Origin: Bacteroidota bacterium
Lineage (GTDB): Bacteria; Bacteroidota; Bacteroidia; AKYH767-A; OLB10
Reading direction: 5' to 3'
Length of the DNA stretch: 43,639 nt
Assembly (NCBI GenBank): GCA_025352785.1
Contig: JANXSD010000137.1
Coordinates: forward strand, 1-43,639
Position 1 is the first letter of the stretch. Every line of letters starts with the position of its first letter. Position numbers and translations under genes: made by a program. Below, piece by piece: positions 5,405-43,613 of the stretch. The notes under the pieces are model-generated. The model was not told where the DNA came from. It searched no databases and saw only the letters and a program-made list of their open reading frames with translations.

Positions 5405-5482
5405 AAAACTTTATCGAAGGAATATATTGTAAAAATAGTTTCGTGTTCGTCGCTAGCGACTCATTGTTAGGTAGCGGTAACA
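5405..5482. repeat. Direct repeat copy 1 (CGTCGCTAGCGACTCATTG family)
   Basis: About 75 bp beginning AAAACTTT.TCGAAGG and ending in TAGCGGTAAC. It is repeated with small indels at 5758-5838. The shared core holds a 12-bp perfect palindrome, GTCGCTAGCGAC, followed by TCATTGTTA. Confidence 0.8.
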
Positions 5483-5757: not shown

Positions 5758-5838
5758 AAAACTTTTTCGAAGGGAAATCTCAATGCAGAAAAATAATTTC
5801 ATCTTCGTCGCTAGCGACTCATTGTTAATAGCGGTAAC
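5758..5838. repeat. Direct repeat copy 2 (CGTCGCTAGCGACTCATTG family)
   Basis: Second copy of the repeat at 5405-5482, in the same orientation. The AAAACTTTTTCGAAGG start and the CGTCGCTAGCGAC palindrome are both retained. It ends about 90 bp before the radical SAM promoter. Confidence 0.8.
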
Positions 5839-25219: not shown

Positions 25220-26558
25220 TAAAGCAAGAACGAACATGGCTTTGGTTCAGAAGAAGACGCATGTGCTTTACCATTAATTGCAGAGCGAATTGCTAAAACA
25301 GGTGCTTATGAAGTATCACGTGTAACCCAGACATCCATTGTAGGAATTAATATTTGCTTTGATGTGGAATGCAAGTTCTGTTGCGTATAATTTCTTCACA
25401 CTTTTTATCAGCACAACAGGTATTGCATGCTTTATGTTGATGCTTAAAAAATTCAATCTAAAAAATTGGATGTGGGCAGGAATAGGTATTGCGATTACAC
25501 CAATAATCTATATTAATTCCACTAACGATATGGACTATATGTGGGCATTGGGATTTACATTGATCGTAGCTGTTCATCATCTCAATGTTAGCGCGGGGTT
25601 ATTTCTAGCTTGTGCAATAGGATGTAGAATTACTTCTGGAGCAATGTTAATACCAATGTGTTTATTGGTTTGGCATTGCGCCGAAAAAGAATTTCGAATT
25701 AAAAATATTGCTAGAATAATTTTTTGTACTGCCCTCTTTACTCTATTAATATTCTTTCCTGTATTTCGTAATTATGGATTTAGTTTTTTTACTTATTATG
25801 AACATTTTCCTGTTCCTTTTTTTTCTAAAATTTTTTATAAGGGCGTAATTTCTGTATATGGATTTATAGGAGTGGTAGCACTTTTTATAAGTATTTTATT
25901 CATCGTTTGTAAAAGAAAAACTTATTGTGAAGCAATCATTAATAATAAAAATATAAGCAAAGAAATTGTGATGATAAGTATTCTAACAATCCTTTTATAT
26001 GGATTTTCATTTATGTGTTGTCCTCTTAAAGCTGCATTTGTTATTCCATTAATTCCTTTTGTTTGGTTGATGTTTACACTTCTTATTTTAGATCGATCGT
26101 TTAAAGTATTGGTACTACTGATGGCGGTTTCAACTTTTACTTTTGGAATTAATTTATCTGATCCATTACGTGGTTCGAAAGAAAGCATCTTTAGTATTCA
26201 GAGAAATATTGCTGGTCAAAAAGTGGCCTTTGATCCATTTATTGGTTTATTGATGGCAGACATTACAAAGCGACAACAACGCACTTCCTATGCAATAAAA
26301 GTTTTATCGAAAATTTCATCACTAAAAAAACATACTTTAATAATTGTTGGATGGTGGAATGCAGATCTATTGGTACTACAACGTGGGCACGAGAATCACT
26401 TCGTGAAATTTGCATATTATATTAATGAACCAGATCTTTTAAAATATCAAAAGGATAACTACGAAATATTTTACCTTCCAGAACAAGATACCTTTAACGA
26501 CCTTCGCTATCAGAAAATTTTTACAAAACGATTTGCGAAATTTTTTTATACCAATTGA
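25216..26558 (+). pseudogene. GT-C (GT39-like) membrane glycosyltransferase, damaged at its 5' end
   Basis: Remnant of a polytopic glycosyltransferase. An intact frame of 399 residues with about ten helices runs from 25359 (ATG at 25362). Upstream, 25241-25321 encodes FGSEEDACALPLIAERIAKTGAYEVSR, the conserved first loop of this family, in a different frame. The two frames meet at 25322-25358, where the family's SR-x-PGHPxxE motif should be. One extra A near 25325 shifts the frame, the glycine codon reads AGA (R), and TAG stands where CAG (Q) is expected. The N-terminal helix before the loop is also missing: only about ten codons separate ATG 25216 from the loop. The 3' end runs into an inverted-repeat element that supplies its stop codon. 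Confidence 0.8.
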
Positions 26559-26710
26559 ATATATAAATTAGTTTAAGGACGCAAAGTAATTTTTTATTAA
26601 GACGATTTATAAAAATCGTTGCATAGCCGTCGTCTACAGAACTAGTTTTTTTAAAAAGTATTGGTGAAGCAGATAAGTGTATTCAAATAAATTATATATT
26701 CATTTGGTAT
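26548..26710. repeat. 163-bp inverted-repeat element, copy A (MITE-like)
   Basis: Terminal inverted repeats begin ATACCAATTGAATATATAA and end with the complement ...ATATTCATTTGGTAT, about 30 bp each with few mismatches. The centre holds a short hairpin, ACGATTTATAAAAATCGT, followed by TGCATAGCC. It has no ORF. It matches the element at 43302-43464 in length and in most of its core. It lies between the GT-C remnant and the thioesterase gene. No consistent target duplication could be assigned. Confidence 0.85.
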
Positions 26711-26722
26711 TAGTTGAAGCTC

Positions 26723-30088: not shown

Positions 30089-30248
30089 ATACGAAAAGTA
30101 TAGTTGGTTTATTTCCTAAACTGAATTGATTTATTGTAAATTCGATTTTTTAACATCGTTGAATAGCCTTTCCAACGTAATTGTTTTTCCAGATGTATGG
30201 GTGAAAAAGACAAGTATATTTGAATAATACCATATAAGTTTATGGTAT
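30089..30248. repeat. Decayed copy B of the 163-bp element
   Basis: The right half keeps the core (ATCGTTGAATAGCCTTTCC, then GGGTGAAAAAGACAAGTATA) and the end GGTAT in register with copies A and C. The left half is strongly diverged and has lost a clear inverted repeat. A perfect 12-bp hairpin, AATAATACCATA / TATGGTATTATT (30223-30252), sits at the right end and overlaps the stop codon of the hybrid kinase gene. Confidence 0.6.
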
Positions 30249-33200
30249 TATTCAGATGGATTATTATTTAGTTGATTTATTTCATTTTGAAAAGCGATAA
30301 TTATTTCTCCTATTATTTCATGAAGCTTAACAAGATCATTTTTCATTTGTTCGAGAGTTCTTTTCTTATCTCTATAGCCTTCAATATTTCGAATTGTTTC
30401 TTTTAAGCTATTAATTCCCGCACTATGCAAGGTGGGTTTAATTTTATGTGCAAGTGTACTAATTGAATCCATTTCTCCCTTATCAAAATGATCAAACATT
30501 TTATCTACGATAGGAGGAATTGTTTCTATAAACAGCACTAGCATTTTGCTAATAAAGTTGGGATTGTCACGCGCATCTCTTCTTAGCAATGAAAGGTTAT
30601 ATAATCCTTCATAAGTAGTTTCTGGCCGTTTTCGTACTGGAAAGCGTGGTTGTTTTAATGTGGCATTTATTTTTTCTTTACCATCAAGATGAGCTAATAT
30701 TTTTTTATAAAGTGCCTCTTCCTGAAAGGGTTTTACTAAGCAATCATTCATTCCTTCTAAAACAAACTTTTTATGTGTTTGCTTAGTAGTATTTGCCGTA
30801 AGTGCAATTATAGGTAGTCGTGCTTTTTCTTTATCTTTCATCCCACGTATAAGATGTGTTGCTTCTACACCATTCATTTCTGGCATTTGAATATCCATTA
30901 AAACAATGTCGTAGTTATTTCGCTCTATTAATTCAACAGCTTCCTTTCCATTAGAAGCAATATCAATTTTAAATCCCCAGTCTTGTAACATTGCCTCGGT
31001 AATAAATTGATTTACGCGATTATCTTCTGCGAGTAAAACACGTAAAGCACCAAGTTGTCCTGGAGCAATTCGCTCCGTTGATTTAACTTCTGGAATCTCT
31101 TTTGCCTTTTTATAGGGGATATAAAAAGTAAAAGTACTTCCTTTCCCAGGCTCACTCACCACACCTATTTTACCTCCTTGTCTCTCAATAAGATTTCTCG
31201 AAATAGTTAATCCAAGGCCAGTGCCTTCTTGCAAATTAGATTTACTCCCTTGAAGTTGAGTAAAGCTTTCAAATATCTTTTCTTGTTCATCATGAGCGAT
31301 TCCTATTCCAGTATCTTTAATAGAAAATTCAATCGTTAAATTCTCAGCATCTTCTTCAATGATTCGATGTGTAAGAACTATTTCACCTTGTTCGGTAAAT
31401 TTAATCGCGTTACTTATTAAGTTCAACAGAATTTGATTTAATCGTAAGGGGTCACCTATTACCGCAGGAAGTGGCGATGCATCAATCATGTGACGAATAA
31501 ATAAATCTTTTTCTTCGGCCTTATACAATTGTGTTTGTACAACGGTATCTGCAACACGAGCAGGCTCGAAAACAATTTTATCGAATGATAATTTTCCCGA
31601 CTCCATTTTTGCGGTATCTAATATATCATTGATGATCACTAATAGATTATCCGCTGTACGCGTGAGAATATCCATATAGCTTCTTTGTGTAGAAGACAAC
31701 TCCGTTTTTTGAAGTAGTCGAGCCATCCCTAATACACCATTTATGGGTGTTCGTAGTTCATGACTTACATTGGCAAGAAAATATTCTTTAGTTCGTAACG
31801 ATTCTCCAGCACTTATATTTGCTTGAATAAGTTCATTTTCAAAATTTTTCGATTCGGTTATATCTAAAACAGTTCCATAGAGGCGTATTACTTCTCCATT
31901 TTTATTACGCTCTACTTTTCCTCTCGCATTAATATTTTTTATTCGATTTCCGCTTAATTTAATTTTATATTCTAAATCGAATGGAAGTCCTTCTTTAAAA
32001 GATTTTATAACGATCTTAATTATTCTTTCACGCTCTTCATCATCAATCGTATTGTAAAATTCCTGAAGGGATGGTGGCGGTTTACCAGCATCTAACTCCC
32101 ATATTTTATACGTCCCATCGGACCATTCAGCAACTCCAGTTTTAAGGTCTATTTGCCAAGAGCCAAATCTTGCAACTTCTTGAGCTTCTATTAAGCGAAG
32201 CTCAATCAATTTTAATCGTTCTTCGTGGTTTCTTCTTTCCGTAATATCTAAAACAGTACCATATATTCGAATAGAAGTTCGTGATAAATCCATCTCTACA
32301 AGTGCCCTTGAATACATTACTTTATTATTGCCTTTATAGGTTGTAATACGATATTCAATTGAATATTCTTCACCAGTTCTAATTGACTTTTTCATGGCAT
32401 TCTCTACCTTAAATCGGTCATCGGGATGTATCGTTAAAAGAAATTCTGGAAAGCTTGGAATGGGAAGATCTCTTTCCAATTCCCATAATTTAAAATGCCC
32501 TGCTGACCAAATATTTTTTCCTGACTTTAAATCGCATTCCCAACTTCCCGATTTAGCAAGTTCTTGTGCTTCAACCAATCTTTGCTCATTAAGCTTTAAA
32601 ATTTCTTCTGTCTTTTGTCTTTCAGTAATATCTGCAATACTGCCAACAACTTTTATTATTTGACCATTATCATCAAAGTGTGGCTTATGGATAATATGTA
32701 ACATTTTTACTTCCTGATCACTACAAATAATTCGATAAAACATTTCAAATGGTTTATCCCTCGTAGATAGGACCCCCATCATTTCTAAAAAGAAATCTTT
32801 ATCTTCTGGATGTACATAGTGTAAGAATTCATCAAAACTAGGAGCACCCAATGCTGGGTCACGTTTAAATATTTTAAAGCTCGCAGGCGACCAGTGAATA
32901 ACATTCGATGCAACATCGAAACTAAAACTTCCCATGGATGCCAATTCTTGGACTTCATTTAATCGCATCTCATTTTCGCGAAGTAAATCCTCGTTAATCT
33001 TTTCAATAGTAATATCCCTCACAGTTCCAAAGAGGCAACATACATCACCGGTATCGCTAAAAATAGGTTTGGTCATGCTACGCAAATATTTTATGCCAGA
33101 TGGAAGAAGTAGTCGAAAATCTAGAATCATTCCTGTCTTACTGATTTTCGCATTTTCAATAGCATTTTTTAAAATAATTGCATCTGCTGGATACATACTT

Positions 33201-36923: not shown

Positions 36924-37487
36924 TTTGAAAATATTTTAGACTATTCAATGGATTTCGTTACTATAAATGTTCGTGATAAATACCGTTTATAATTATTTAA
37001 TCACCCAATTTTTTCTAATTAAATTTCATCCATTTTCATTGATTATGAATCCCGATCTAATGGGTATGATTTTAGAAGCGTGAAGCATTTTGTGAGCAAC
37101 TCATTTTTTTCTGTTGGGAGGTTCATTAAAGTTTCCGCCTTAGCAAATTCCAAAAACATCTAGTCGCTTGCTCCCATTAAAGCCATTATTTTTTTATAAA
37201 TTTGAGCTGGGGGATACGAAGTATCCCACGAAAAAAAATTAATGTATAATAATTTATTCCTAAAAATGTGTTCGGTTTATTAGGAAGAAATAAATTTAGG
37301 TAATCTAAAATACTTTTATTTTTTTACTGCTGCTACTTCTTTTTAAAATAAATCTGTAATAAAGGAGAATACAACGATTTTTAAAAATATCGTATCAAAA
37401 GTTATAGCCTAGTTTAGGAATAGAACAGGGATTGATAGTTACAAAGACTTATAGTCGTTTGCTCCCATTAAGACCATTTTTTTTTAT
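36924..37487. other. Gene-free spacer upstream of the IS, with a direct repeat
   Basis: AT-rich, no convincing ORF. It contains the first copy of a 65-bp repeat (37162-37228) and most of the second (37452-37517), sharing GCTCCCATTAA and TATAAATTTGAGC. GTTTCCGCCTTAGCAAA (37130 region) is related, in inverse orientation, to a GCTGAGGCGGAAA string near 5625. Confidence 0.6.
37162..37228 (+). repeat. REP-like repeat copy 1 with GGGATAC-GAA-GTATCCC hairpin
   Basis: Runs GTCGCTTGCTCCCATTAA ... TATAAATTTGAGC and ends in the perfect hairpin GGGATACGAAGTATCCC. It is repeated in direct orientation at 37452-37517, where the hairpin reads GGATGCCATGCATCC. Confidence 0.75.
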
Positions 37488-37534
37488 AAATTTGAGCAAG
37501 GATGCCATGCATCCCCATAGGCGTCGGGCTAAGG
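37452..37534 (+). repeat. REP-like repeat copy 2 at the left end of the IS
   Basis: Same lead-in as copy 1, then the hairpin GGATGC-CAT-GCATCC and the tail CCCCATAGGCGTCGGGC. From 37488 on it is matched in reverse complement by 38961-39010 beyond the transposase. Confidence 0.75.
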
Positions 37535-37625
37535 AATTAACAAAGCGAGGTTAATAAATTTCAGTAAATAAAAAGCAGTGCATTCAATTTAACTCATACC
37601 ATAGTGTTGTCTATTCCAGAATACT

Positions 37626-38966
37626 ATGAGAAAATCAAATGCACTGCAAAACAAAAGTAAATTAGTTGATCAGATTATCAGATTTTTCGACAAAAAATTT
37701 GTTAACAAAACGGCACGATCTAGAAAATTTGTTCAGCGAGCAAGTACATTCACTGGAATGGATCTTTTGCTTCTGAGTGTATTTTCTCATCAACAAAACA
37801 ATGCCAGTAGTTTACAAGGGTACATAAGTGAGTTGCTTTTTAGAGGGAAAGCGATGGCTAAGCAAAGTCTTCATGACCGTTTTAACAAATATTCGGTTGA
37901 TTTTATGCAAAAGATGCTCGCTCATTCATTAGCACAGAAACTAGCCATTCAAAAAGCCTTTCAAACAACGTGTTTTAAAAGGATAATCATAGGAGATGCT
38001 ACTTCATACCAATTATCATCCCATTACGTGGATAAATATAAGGGCAATGGTGGACACGCATCTATCTCTTCCATTAAAATTCAATATAATTACGATTTAC
38101 TTTCTAATAAAATAATATTGTAATCCCCCAAGTCGGGTCACCACGCCGATTTAAAGTCAGAGCTTGGAGAAATAAAGAAAGACGATTTACGGATTGATGA
38201 CCTAGGGTATTTCCATATCAACCGATTTTTATGGATACAAAAAGCAGGAGCATATTTTTTATCTCGACATAGATATGATGTACACCTTTATAGACATCAG
38301 AGTGGGAAATTTGAATTAATTGATATAGTGAAATTAAAAAGAGGAATGAGGGAGGGAGAACAAAGAAGCATAATTTGTTATGTTGGAAAAAATGAATTAA
38401 TGAAAATACGGGTGGTGATAGAAAAAGTTCCACAGCGAATAGTAGCAGAAAAAAGAAGAAAGTTAAAATTTATAAGTGAAGGAAAATCAAAATTTATTTC
38501 TAAAAAAAGGCTGGAATTATGCGCAATCAATACCTATCTAACTAATGCTAGTACAGTACAATTTCCGACAAAGGAAGTTAGGAAATATTATAGTTTACGA
38601 TGGCAAATTGAAATTCTATTTAAAGCGTGGAAATCAACCTATAATATTGATAAAATTAAGGACATGAAGATCAAGCGATTTGAATGCATCACCTATGGAA
38701 CACTCATGTTAATTGTCATAACTTCCCATCTATTAGCGCACTATAAAAGTAAATTGTTTGTTAAAACAAATAGAGAAATTAGCGAATTGAAATTTTTCAA
38801 AATAATTAAACAAAATTGCAACTTATTGAAAATTGCATTACAAGAATCAACGACTAAACTCTTGTCATTAATTTTAACCTTAGACAAGATTATAGTACTC
38901 ACATGCAGCAAAGAACTTAAAAAACGGATACTTCCTCCTTTTAAAATACTTAAAATCATTCCTTAG
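37626..38966 (+). pseudogene. IS4-family transposase interrupted by one in-frame TAA
   Basis: DDE transposase of 446 codons with a single TAA at 38121-38123; the frame is otherwise continuous. The first catalytic Asp is in IIGDATSYQL, the second in RIDDLGYF. The C-terminal YSLRWQIEILFKAWK fits the IS4 signature Y-(2)-R-(3)-E-(6)-K exactly, with E as the third catalytic acid. The stop falls between the two Asp motifs, so both halves alone are dead. There is no frameshift, and every catalytic residue is retained. Either the nonsense change is recent, the stop is read through, or it is a sequencing error. Confidence 0.85.
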
Positions 38967-39010
38967 CCTGACGCTTAAGGGGATACTACGTATCCCCTTA
39001 AGCAAGTTTA
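38961..39010 (-). repeat. Right inverted copy of the REP-like/IS-end repeat
   Basis: Starts CCTTAGCCTGACGCTTAAGG, overlapping the transposase stop (TAG, 38964-38966), and continues into the palindrome CTTAAGGGGATAC-TAC-GTATCCCCTTAAG. In reverse complement it matches 37488-37534. The palindrome could also end transcription of the transposase. Confidence 0.75.
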
Positions 39011-39193
39011 AAAATTGTACCAATTTTTTTTCTCCCAAAAAATATTCTCAGTTGCTTATATGCAATATATTTCTATTTTTTTTCATTACTACTTGGCATT
39101 CACACGATTTTTTAAAATCGACCTGATCAAAAAATACAGTTTAATTACATACTCAATCATGAATATATTTGGTGCAAATTAAAGTGTTGTTCT

Positions 39194-43190: not shown

Positions 43191-43301
43191 AATAATCGAA
43201 AAATCTATTCATATTTTATTCATAGAAGAGAATATTCTTCAAACCTGAAATTTGGGATAATTGAGTAATTAGATGCATCGATTTTAATTCTTTTATCAAT
43301 A

Positions 43302-43464
43302 ATACCAATTGCAAATATATTTTAGTCCAAAGATGCGATGTAATTTTTTTATCCAGACGATTTAAAAAATCGTTGCATAGCCTTTGCCTACGAAACTATT
43401 TTTTTAAGAAGTATTGATGAAAAAGTACAAGTAGATTGGACTAAAATATATTGGCAGTTGGTAT
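43302..43464. repeat. 163-bp inverted-repeat element, copy C (best preserved)
   Basis: The outermost 29 bp pair at 27 of 29 positions: left ATACCAATTGCAAATATATT and onward against the complement of TATATTGGCAGTTGGTAT. The stem continues through TAGTCCAA / TTGGACTA. The core contains the perfect hairpin ACGATTT-AAA-AAATCGT and then TGCATAGCC. No ORF. It has the same length as copy A. Confidence 0.88.
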
Positions 43465-43613
43465 AATATATGGTCGGTTGTAATATTAATTTTCAAAAAA
43501 GGGTATTAAGTATAGAAAAGTTTATTTACATTCACCAAAGTATTAGTAAACTCTTTAGTTTTTGTTTGAAATTTCATTCTAACCCTATAAAATTTATTTG
43601 CTATGAAAACGTT

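Follow-up and report, generated by a model that had tools for sequence, protein, structure and literature searches.

Two palindromic segments in a 43,639-nucleotide stretch of a Bacteroidota genome (contig JANXSD010000137.1, the window in what follows) have arms that differ in sequence between the segments and yet stay complementary within each of them. What keeps the arms paired, and in whose interest? The original prediction considered two answers, selection on a folded RNA or cruciform, including a terminator or stability structure at gene ends, and gene conversion from arm to arm; it did not recognise a mobile element with target-site duplications. Here, we found that the segments at 43302-43464 (copy C) and 26548-26710 (copy A) both belong to one multi-copy element of ~161 bp, and that the pairing of the arms is held in the propagating lineage and not in each insertion.

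A mobile hairpin element in the window

The element begins with TACCAA, ends with TTGGTA and contains no open reading frame of at least 80 aa within its 161 bp, i.e. it is non-coding. The following features were delimited in the window:

43303..43463, + strand: copy C of the element, which measures 161 bp from one target duplication to the other; ~42 genome copies at 89-98% identity
43300..43302: left target-site duplication of copy C, TAA
43464..43466: right target-site duplication of copy C, TAA
43302..43328, + strand: outer left arm of copy C, pairs with 43438-43464; covaries between lineages
43438..43464, + strand: outer right arm of copy C, pairs with 43302-43328; covaries between lineages
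43372..43396, + strand: apical motif of copy C, GTTGCATAGCCTTTGCCTACGAAAC; family form GTTGCATAGC-n-GCTACGGAAC with a constant G.G mismatch
26549..26709, + strand: copy A, older and diverged, with its own paired arms; 78% identity to copy C
26546..26548: left target-site duplication of copy A, TTA
26710..26712: right target-site duplication of copy A, TTA
30129..30250, + strand: copy B, a decayed remnant, ~70% identical to copy A over 125 nt; outer arms lost
39017..39173, - strand: possible fourth copy, badly decayed; inner match of 32-34 nt at 39104-39137

The span 43302-43464 given for copy C in the original prediction thus takes in one base of each of its target duplications. End-like motifs, TACCAA and TTGGTG, lie at the two sides of the possible fourth copy, as judged by eye. 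Being short, non-coding and multi-copy, with terminal inverted repeats and a target-site duplication, the element has the generic traits of a MITE, and we consider it likely that the feature is an inserted MITE-like transposon of ~161 bp, non-autonomous and non-coding, that is flanked by a TNA duplication and forms over its entire length one imperfect hairpin.

The stems described in the original prediction are indeed present. In copy C, TTTTAGTCCAA at 43320-43330 and TTGGACTAAAA at 43436-43446 are perfect complements, with 91% complementarity along the 32 nt of the full outer arms (43299-43330 and 43436-43467); in copy A, 11 of 14 positions pair between ATAAATTAGTTTAA at 26563-26576 and TTCAAATAAATTATAT at 26682-26697, as do 25 of 29 along the entire outer arm. 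Compared with shuffled sequences, the DNA fold of copy C has a z-score of -6.9 (none of 200 shuffles folds as well) and that of copy A a z-score of -3.2 (1 of 200). The claim that the arms changed and remained complementary also stands above chance (see the covariation below), with the refinement that pairing spans the whole 161 bp and not just the stem below the terminus. The stop codon TAA of a 399-aa open reading frame at 25359-26558 comes from copy A, whose insertion may have taken the place of the original gene end (26548-26558).

Copy number, target sites and distribution

A DNA search of the window's genome (G000) returned the about 42 copies at 89-98% identity, many of them cut by contig ends, together with several older copies at 70-80%; overall we count ~45 copies. 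The main set comprises 38 full-length copies (35 from the window's genome and 3 from relatives); 29 of them have the same triplet, either TTA or TAA, at left and right, and the middle base agrees in 29 of the 31 copies that have TWA on both sides (p = 5e-7). A second subfamily from a distant genus (G153-II, see below) has matched triplets in 10 of 10 copies, comprising TTA, TGA, TCA and TAA, and the duplication is thus TNA.

All copies with resolved neighbours are intergenic, in both orientations, and lie in 11 convergent, 17 tandem and 4 divergent gaps, genes being taken as long, uncurated open reading frames; copies in tandem gaps are sense in 7 cases and antisense in 10. This placement in all gap types is consistent with tolerated insertions without a fixed orientation. 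The assemblies are drafts broken exactly at these repeats: several contigs of the window's genome begin or finish within a copy, so that some flank pairs are assembly chimeras, and two contigs (C74:13552 and C26:25395) have the same left flank of a copy.

Is the element confined to this genome? Within its own family, for which 24 genomes were examined, it is present in three genera, and widening the search from family to order gave no further carriers. In a class-wide sample it was found again in one distant genus (G153, G239, G290, G313, G334 and G392; weakly in G319), from which full copies were recovered in ~1.5 Mb of sampled genome sequence. Length, ends and duplication are retained in these distant copies, as is the apical motif GTTGCATAGC-n-GCTACGGAAC, whose G.G mismatch is nearly constant. 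One of these genomes, G153, holds two subfamilies whose arms are unrelated: the outer arms of G153-I are nearly perfect, and G153-II has wholly different arms of ~38 nt with the same ends, inner T-run, apex and duplication. Between genera, the interior is more conserved than the arms. When insertions of the window's genome were compared with those of the two other genera (G010 and G022), no common neighbourhood emerged except for two matches of a flanking protein, one weak (23%) and the other moderate (52%). No homologue was found in phage, plasmid and viral-contig collections, and a search of open-licence papers did not turn up this hairpin family.

Covariation between lineages

The original prediction held that selection on pairing would be contradicted if, with many copies aligned, the arms covaried at chance level. 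We ran this comparison and found covariation above chance that reaches the apex. Among 13 copies or lineages from the first three genera, both partners had changed in 15 of the 27 outer pairs, versus 6.0 +/- 1.7 in shuffles, and in 4 pairs of the inner stem, versus 1.4. The shuffle control does not account for sequence relatedness; controls with the partner slid keep relatedness and yet fall far below the observed value, with ~41% of outer-pair cells paired at most versus 92% in the same 13 sequences. With 18 lineages, two-sided changes were seen in 16 of 26 outer pairs (shuffles 6.9; 42 cells versus 10.7), 9 of 21 inner pairs (5.4; 23 cells versus 9.5) and 4 of 15 apical pairs (1.7; 10 cells versus 2.3). 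While the arms covary across these 18 lineages, the ends and the apex GTTGCATAGC-n-GCTACGGAAC stay constant.

Pairing is kept between founders and lost in place

Does the same hold for single insertions? In 29 young copies of the window's genome we found 26 singleton substitutions within the 27 outer pairs; 24 of them broke a Watson-Crick pair, and in none of these 24 had the partner changed. Where the window's genome is set beside the two other genera, in contrast, outer pair changes were two-sided in 7 of 14 cases (Fisher p = 0.0003 against 0 of 24), a comparison of singleton counts with pairwise lineage differences. Likewise, all 18 substitutions at paired positions of G153-II break the pair and none is compensated. 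Compensated changes thus separate lineages, not single insertions. Private changes are uncompensated, and old, decayed copies form poorer folds than young ones do; from one founding copy to the next the pairing is thus preserved, and it decays where a copy has been inserted. It seems to matter for the spread of the element and not for neighbouring genes. The proposed selection on a folded structure is hence supported for the lineage of propagating elements, and fails for single copies.

These data bear directly on a host-beneficial RNA selected at each locus, be it a terminator, an mRNA stabiliser or a regulatory RNA. The fold is stable, the + strand folds better and shows more G-T than A-C states (see below), and ERIC and Correia elements are known to affect mRNA (PMC2229807). 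Yet private changes are not compensated, old copies decay, and no orientation preference exists in tandem gaps. A role at gene ends is not supported either: the criterion of an intrinsic terminator, a G+C-rich stem followed by a T-run, identified no site on the element or its flanks, the stem being followed only by the TNA duplication, and copies occupy convergent, tandem and divergent gaps in both orientations. A search with Rfam 15 of the window and three loci gave no match on the element, only weak leader matches outside it. We consider selection for such an RNA improbable. The leader matches are Phe-leader-like hairpins on the minus strand, below the gathering score, that adjoin the G010 and G022 copies (L079:2337-2413 and L081:2017-2083).

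Arm-to-arm gene conversion, or template switching across the hairpin, would transfer changes between arms and could account for subfamilies that differ at both arms (A-T to G-C at pair 18) and for the nearly perfect outer arms of G153-I, but is quite unlikely, as specific interior mismatches persist across genera and private changes were copied to the other arm in 0 of 26 outer singletons and 0 of 18 substitutions in G153-II, with one doubtful inner case (L076).

Hairpin recognition or ordinary terminal repeats?

A competing explanation is that the arms are ordinary terminal inverted repeats, which covary because one transposase binds both ends, and that the hairpin has no role. Indeed, TNA duplications and fixed TACCAA ends would be expected of such repeats, and mismatches in the outer arms of the window's genome and its near relatives are unbiased by strand (G-T 13 : A-C 11, and 15:11 in a second count), as for sites in double-stranded DNA. 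However, compensated changes also occur 38-52 bp in and at the apex, beyond the usual 15-30 bp of a transposon end; the outer arms diverge faster than the interior, whereas a plain repeat should have slow ends; and the two G153 subfamilies have no arm sequence in common beyond the end. Recognition of a hairpin explains the slow interior, the compensation at the apex and the two arm sets better, and we regard ordinary terminal repeats as possible but rather unlikely; plain terminal repeats served by a different transposase in each subfamily are a live rival.

Because the G153 subfamilies combine unrelated arms with identical end hexamers, apex and TNA duplications, recognition probably concerns the ends together with the hairpin and its apex, and not a long specific terminal repeat. 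We infer that the element is moved by a trans-acting DDE transposase of the TNA-duplicating kind (IS1031 group of IS5), and that only copies with an intact hairpin would be mobilised or amplified. The selection on arm pairing would then act on the copies that found new subfamilies and would end upon insertion; mobilisation of paired copies only would explain why pairing is kept between founders and lost in place.

Strand asymmetry

Is one strand the folded one? The + strand gives the better fold in 15 of 16 lineages. Across lineages, one-sided changes left G-T in 30 and A-C in 12 cases on the + strand (p = 0.008), states being counted once per pair and lineages being not fully independent. For the inner stem of the window's genome and its near relatives, the ratio was 19:7 at first and 20:11 (p = 0.15) with two more decayed copies; as this count weakened, the strand bias rests on the cross-lineage 30:12. 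The loss of significance in the near relatives would suit a strand-biased mutation or chance in place of folding of that strand, though the transition bias runs the other way in columns outside Watson-Crick pairs (7 versus 20 kinds), so that a general strand bias is not seen; we regard strand-biased mutation or chance as possible but rather unlikely. A strand-specific fold, as RNA or single-stranded DNA, is accordingly a lead and not a result. One tentative and more far-reaching reading is that these mobile hairpins of Bacteroidota are recognised for mobility as a folded single strand (RNA or ssDNA, of one strand) with its apical motif, the arms being free to change if paired; we hold it to be possible, on balance doubtful.

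Search for a mobilising enzyme

A TNA duplication by itself does not name the enzyme. Searches for an autonomous partner by transposase families, end patterns and isolated ends in G000, G010, G022 and ~530 kb of G153 found none, which is weak evidence because these drafts are broken at these very repeats. None of the DDE_Tnp_1 (PF01609) loci of the three genomes has TACCAA ends, DDE_Tnp_4 (PF13359) had no match in the three genomes, and none of the examined isolated ends led to a transposase. G010 has one weak DDE_Tnp_1_2 (PF13586) match, below the cut-off and with three in-frame stops.

A TACCAA-like match at G000:C163:15832 was rejected as a partner. It belongs to an AAA/ATPase_2-like gene of 383 aa (G000:C163:15832-17193; L092:1333-2694) with TATACC..GGTATA palindromes on both sides, which are perhaps its own operators or mobile ends. 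Other repeats were noted in the window: an IS4-like element at 37500-38995, which has inverted ends and whose DDE_Tnp_1 frame is interrupted by a single TAA; a pair of 47-bp direct repeats (83% alike) at 37148-37485, close to a palindrome of the GGGATACGAAGTATCCC type, of which a similar form appears again at ~38980-39000; and a 39-bp direct repeat, 92% alike, at 5431-5469 and 5789-5827, which contains TCGTCGCTAGCGACTCATTG.

Relation to known systems

How does the element compare with known mobile hairpins? The multi-copy, hairpin-forming, MITE-like family with covariation at the level of lineages is real, and ERIC, REPIN and Correia elements are built alike. The ERIC/IRU elements of enterobacteria (127 bp) are likewise short, non-coding, intergenic mobile repeats that form a full-length imperfect hairpin and carry a target duplication (PMC2229807; PMC10969869). 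By description, the element is set apart from ERIC by phylum, length and its TNA instead of a TA-type motif, and its arms vary between lineages while ends and apex stay. REPINs, with their RAYT transposases, are also mobile hairpin units, for which hairpin recognition was proposed and compensatory changes were noted (PMC3116915). They have conserved outer REP sequences, a variable interior and a linked tyrosine transposase, whereas the element has fixed ends and apex, free arms and a 3-bp TNA duplication. The TNA duplications argue against membership in REPINs and point to a DDE-type enzyme and not RAYT. The Correia/NEMIS and RUP elements are similar as MITEs of 100-200 bp whose transcripts form long stem-loops (PMC2229807), and differ in their conserved terminal repeats and TA-type sites and, for Correia, in a known link to RNase III.

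A 3-bp TNA target duplication is reported for the IS1031 group of IS5 (PMC12016507) and a TWA duplication for PIF/Harbinger-type (Tourist-like) MITEs (PMC4482050). The former is common to the element; for neither group was such a transposase with matching ends found. Since a matching IS5-type transposase and ends were not found, we do not file the element as an IS1031 derivative.

In these palindromic repeats, two selections that are usually confused come apart: pairing is kept along the lineage and not in the inserted copies, and covariation in a genomic repeat thus need not mean a function for the host. If the proposed recognition of a folded strand is true, it would join structure-based recognition to a DDE-like TNA target duplication. 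With two arm sets in one genome, the family offers a natural set of lineages for testing whether transposition reads the structure of the hairpin or the sequence of its ends.
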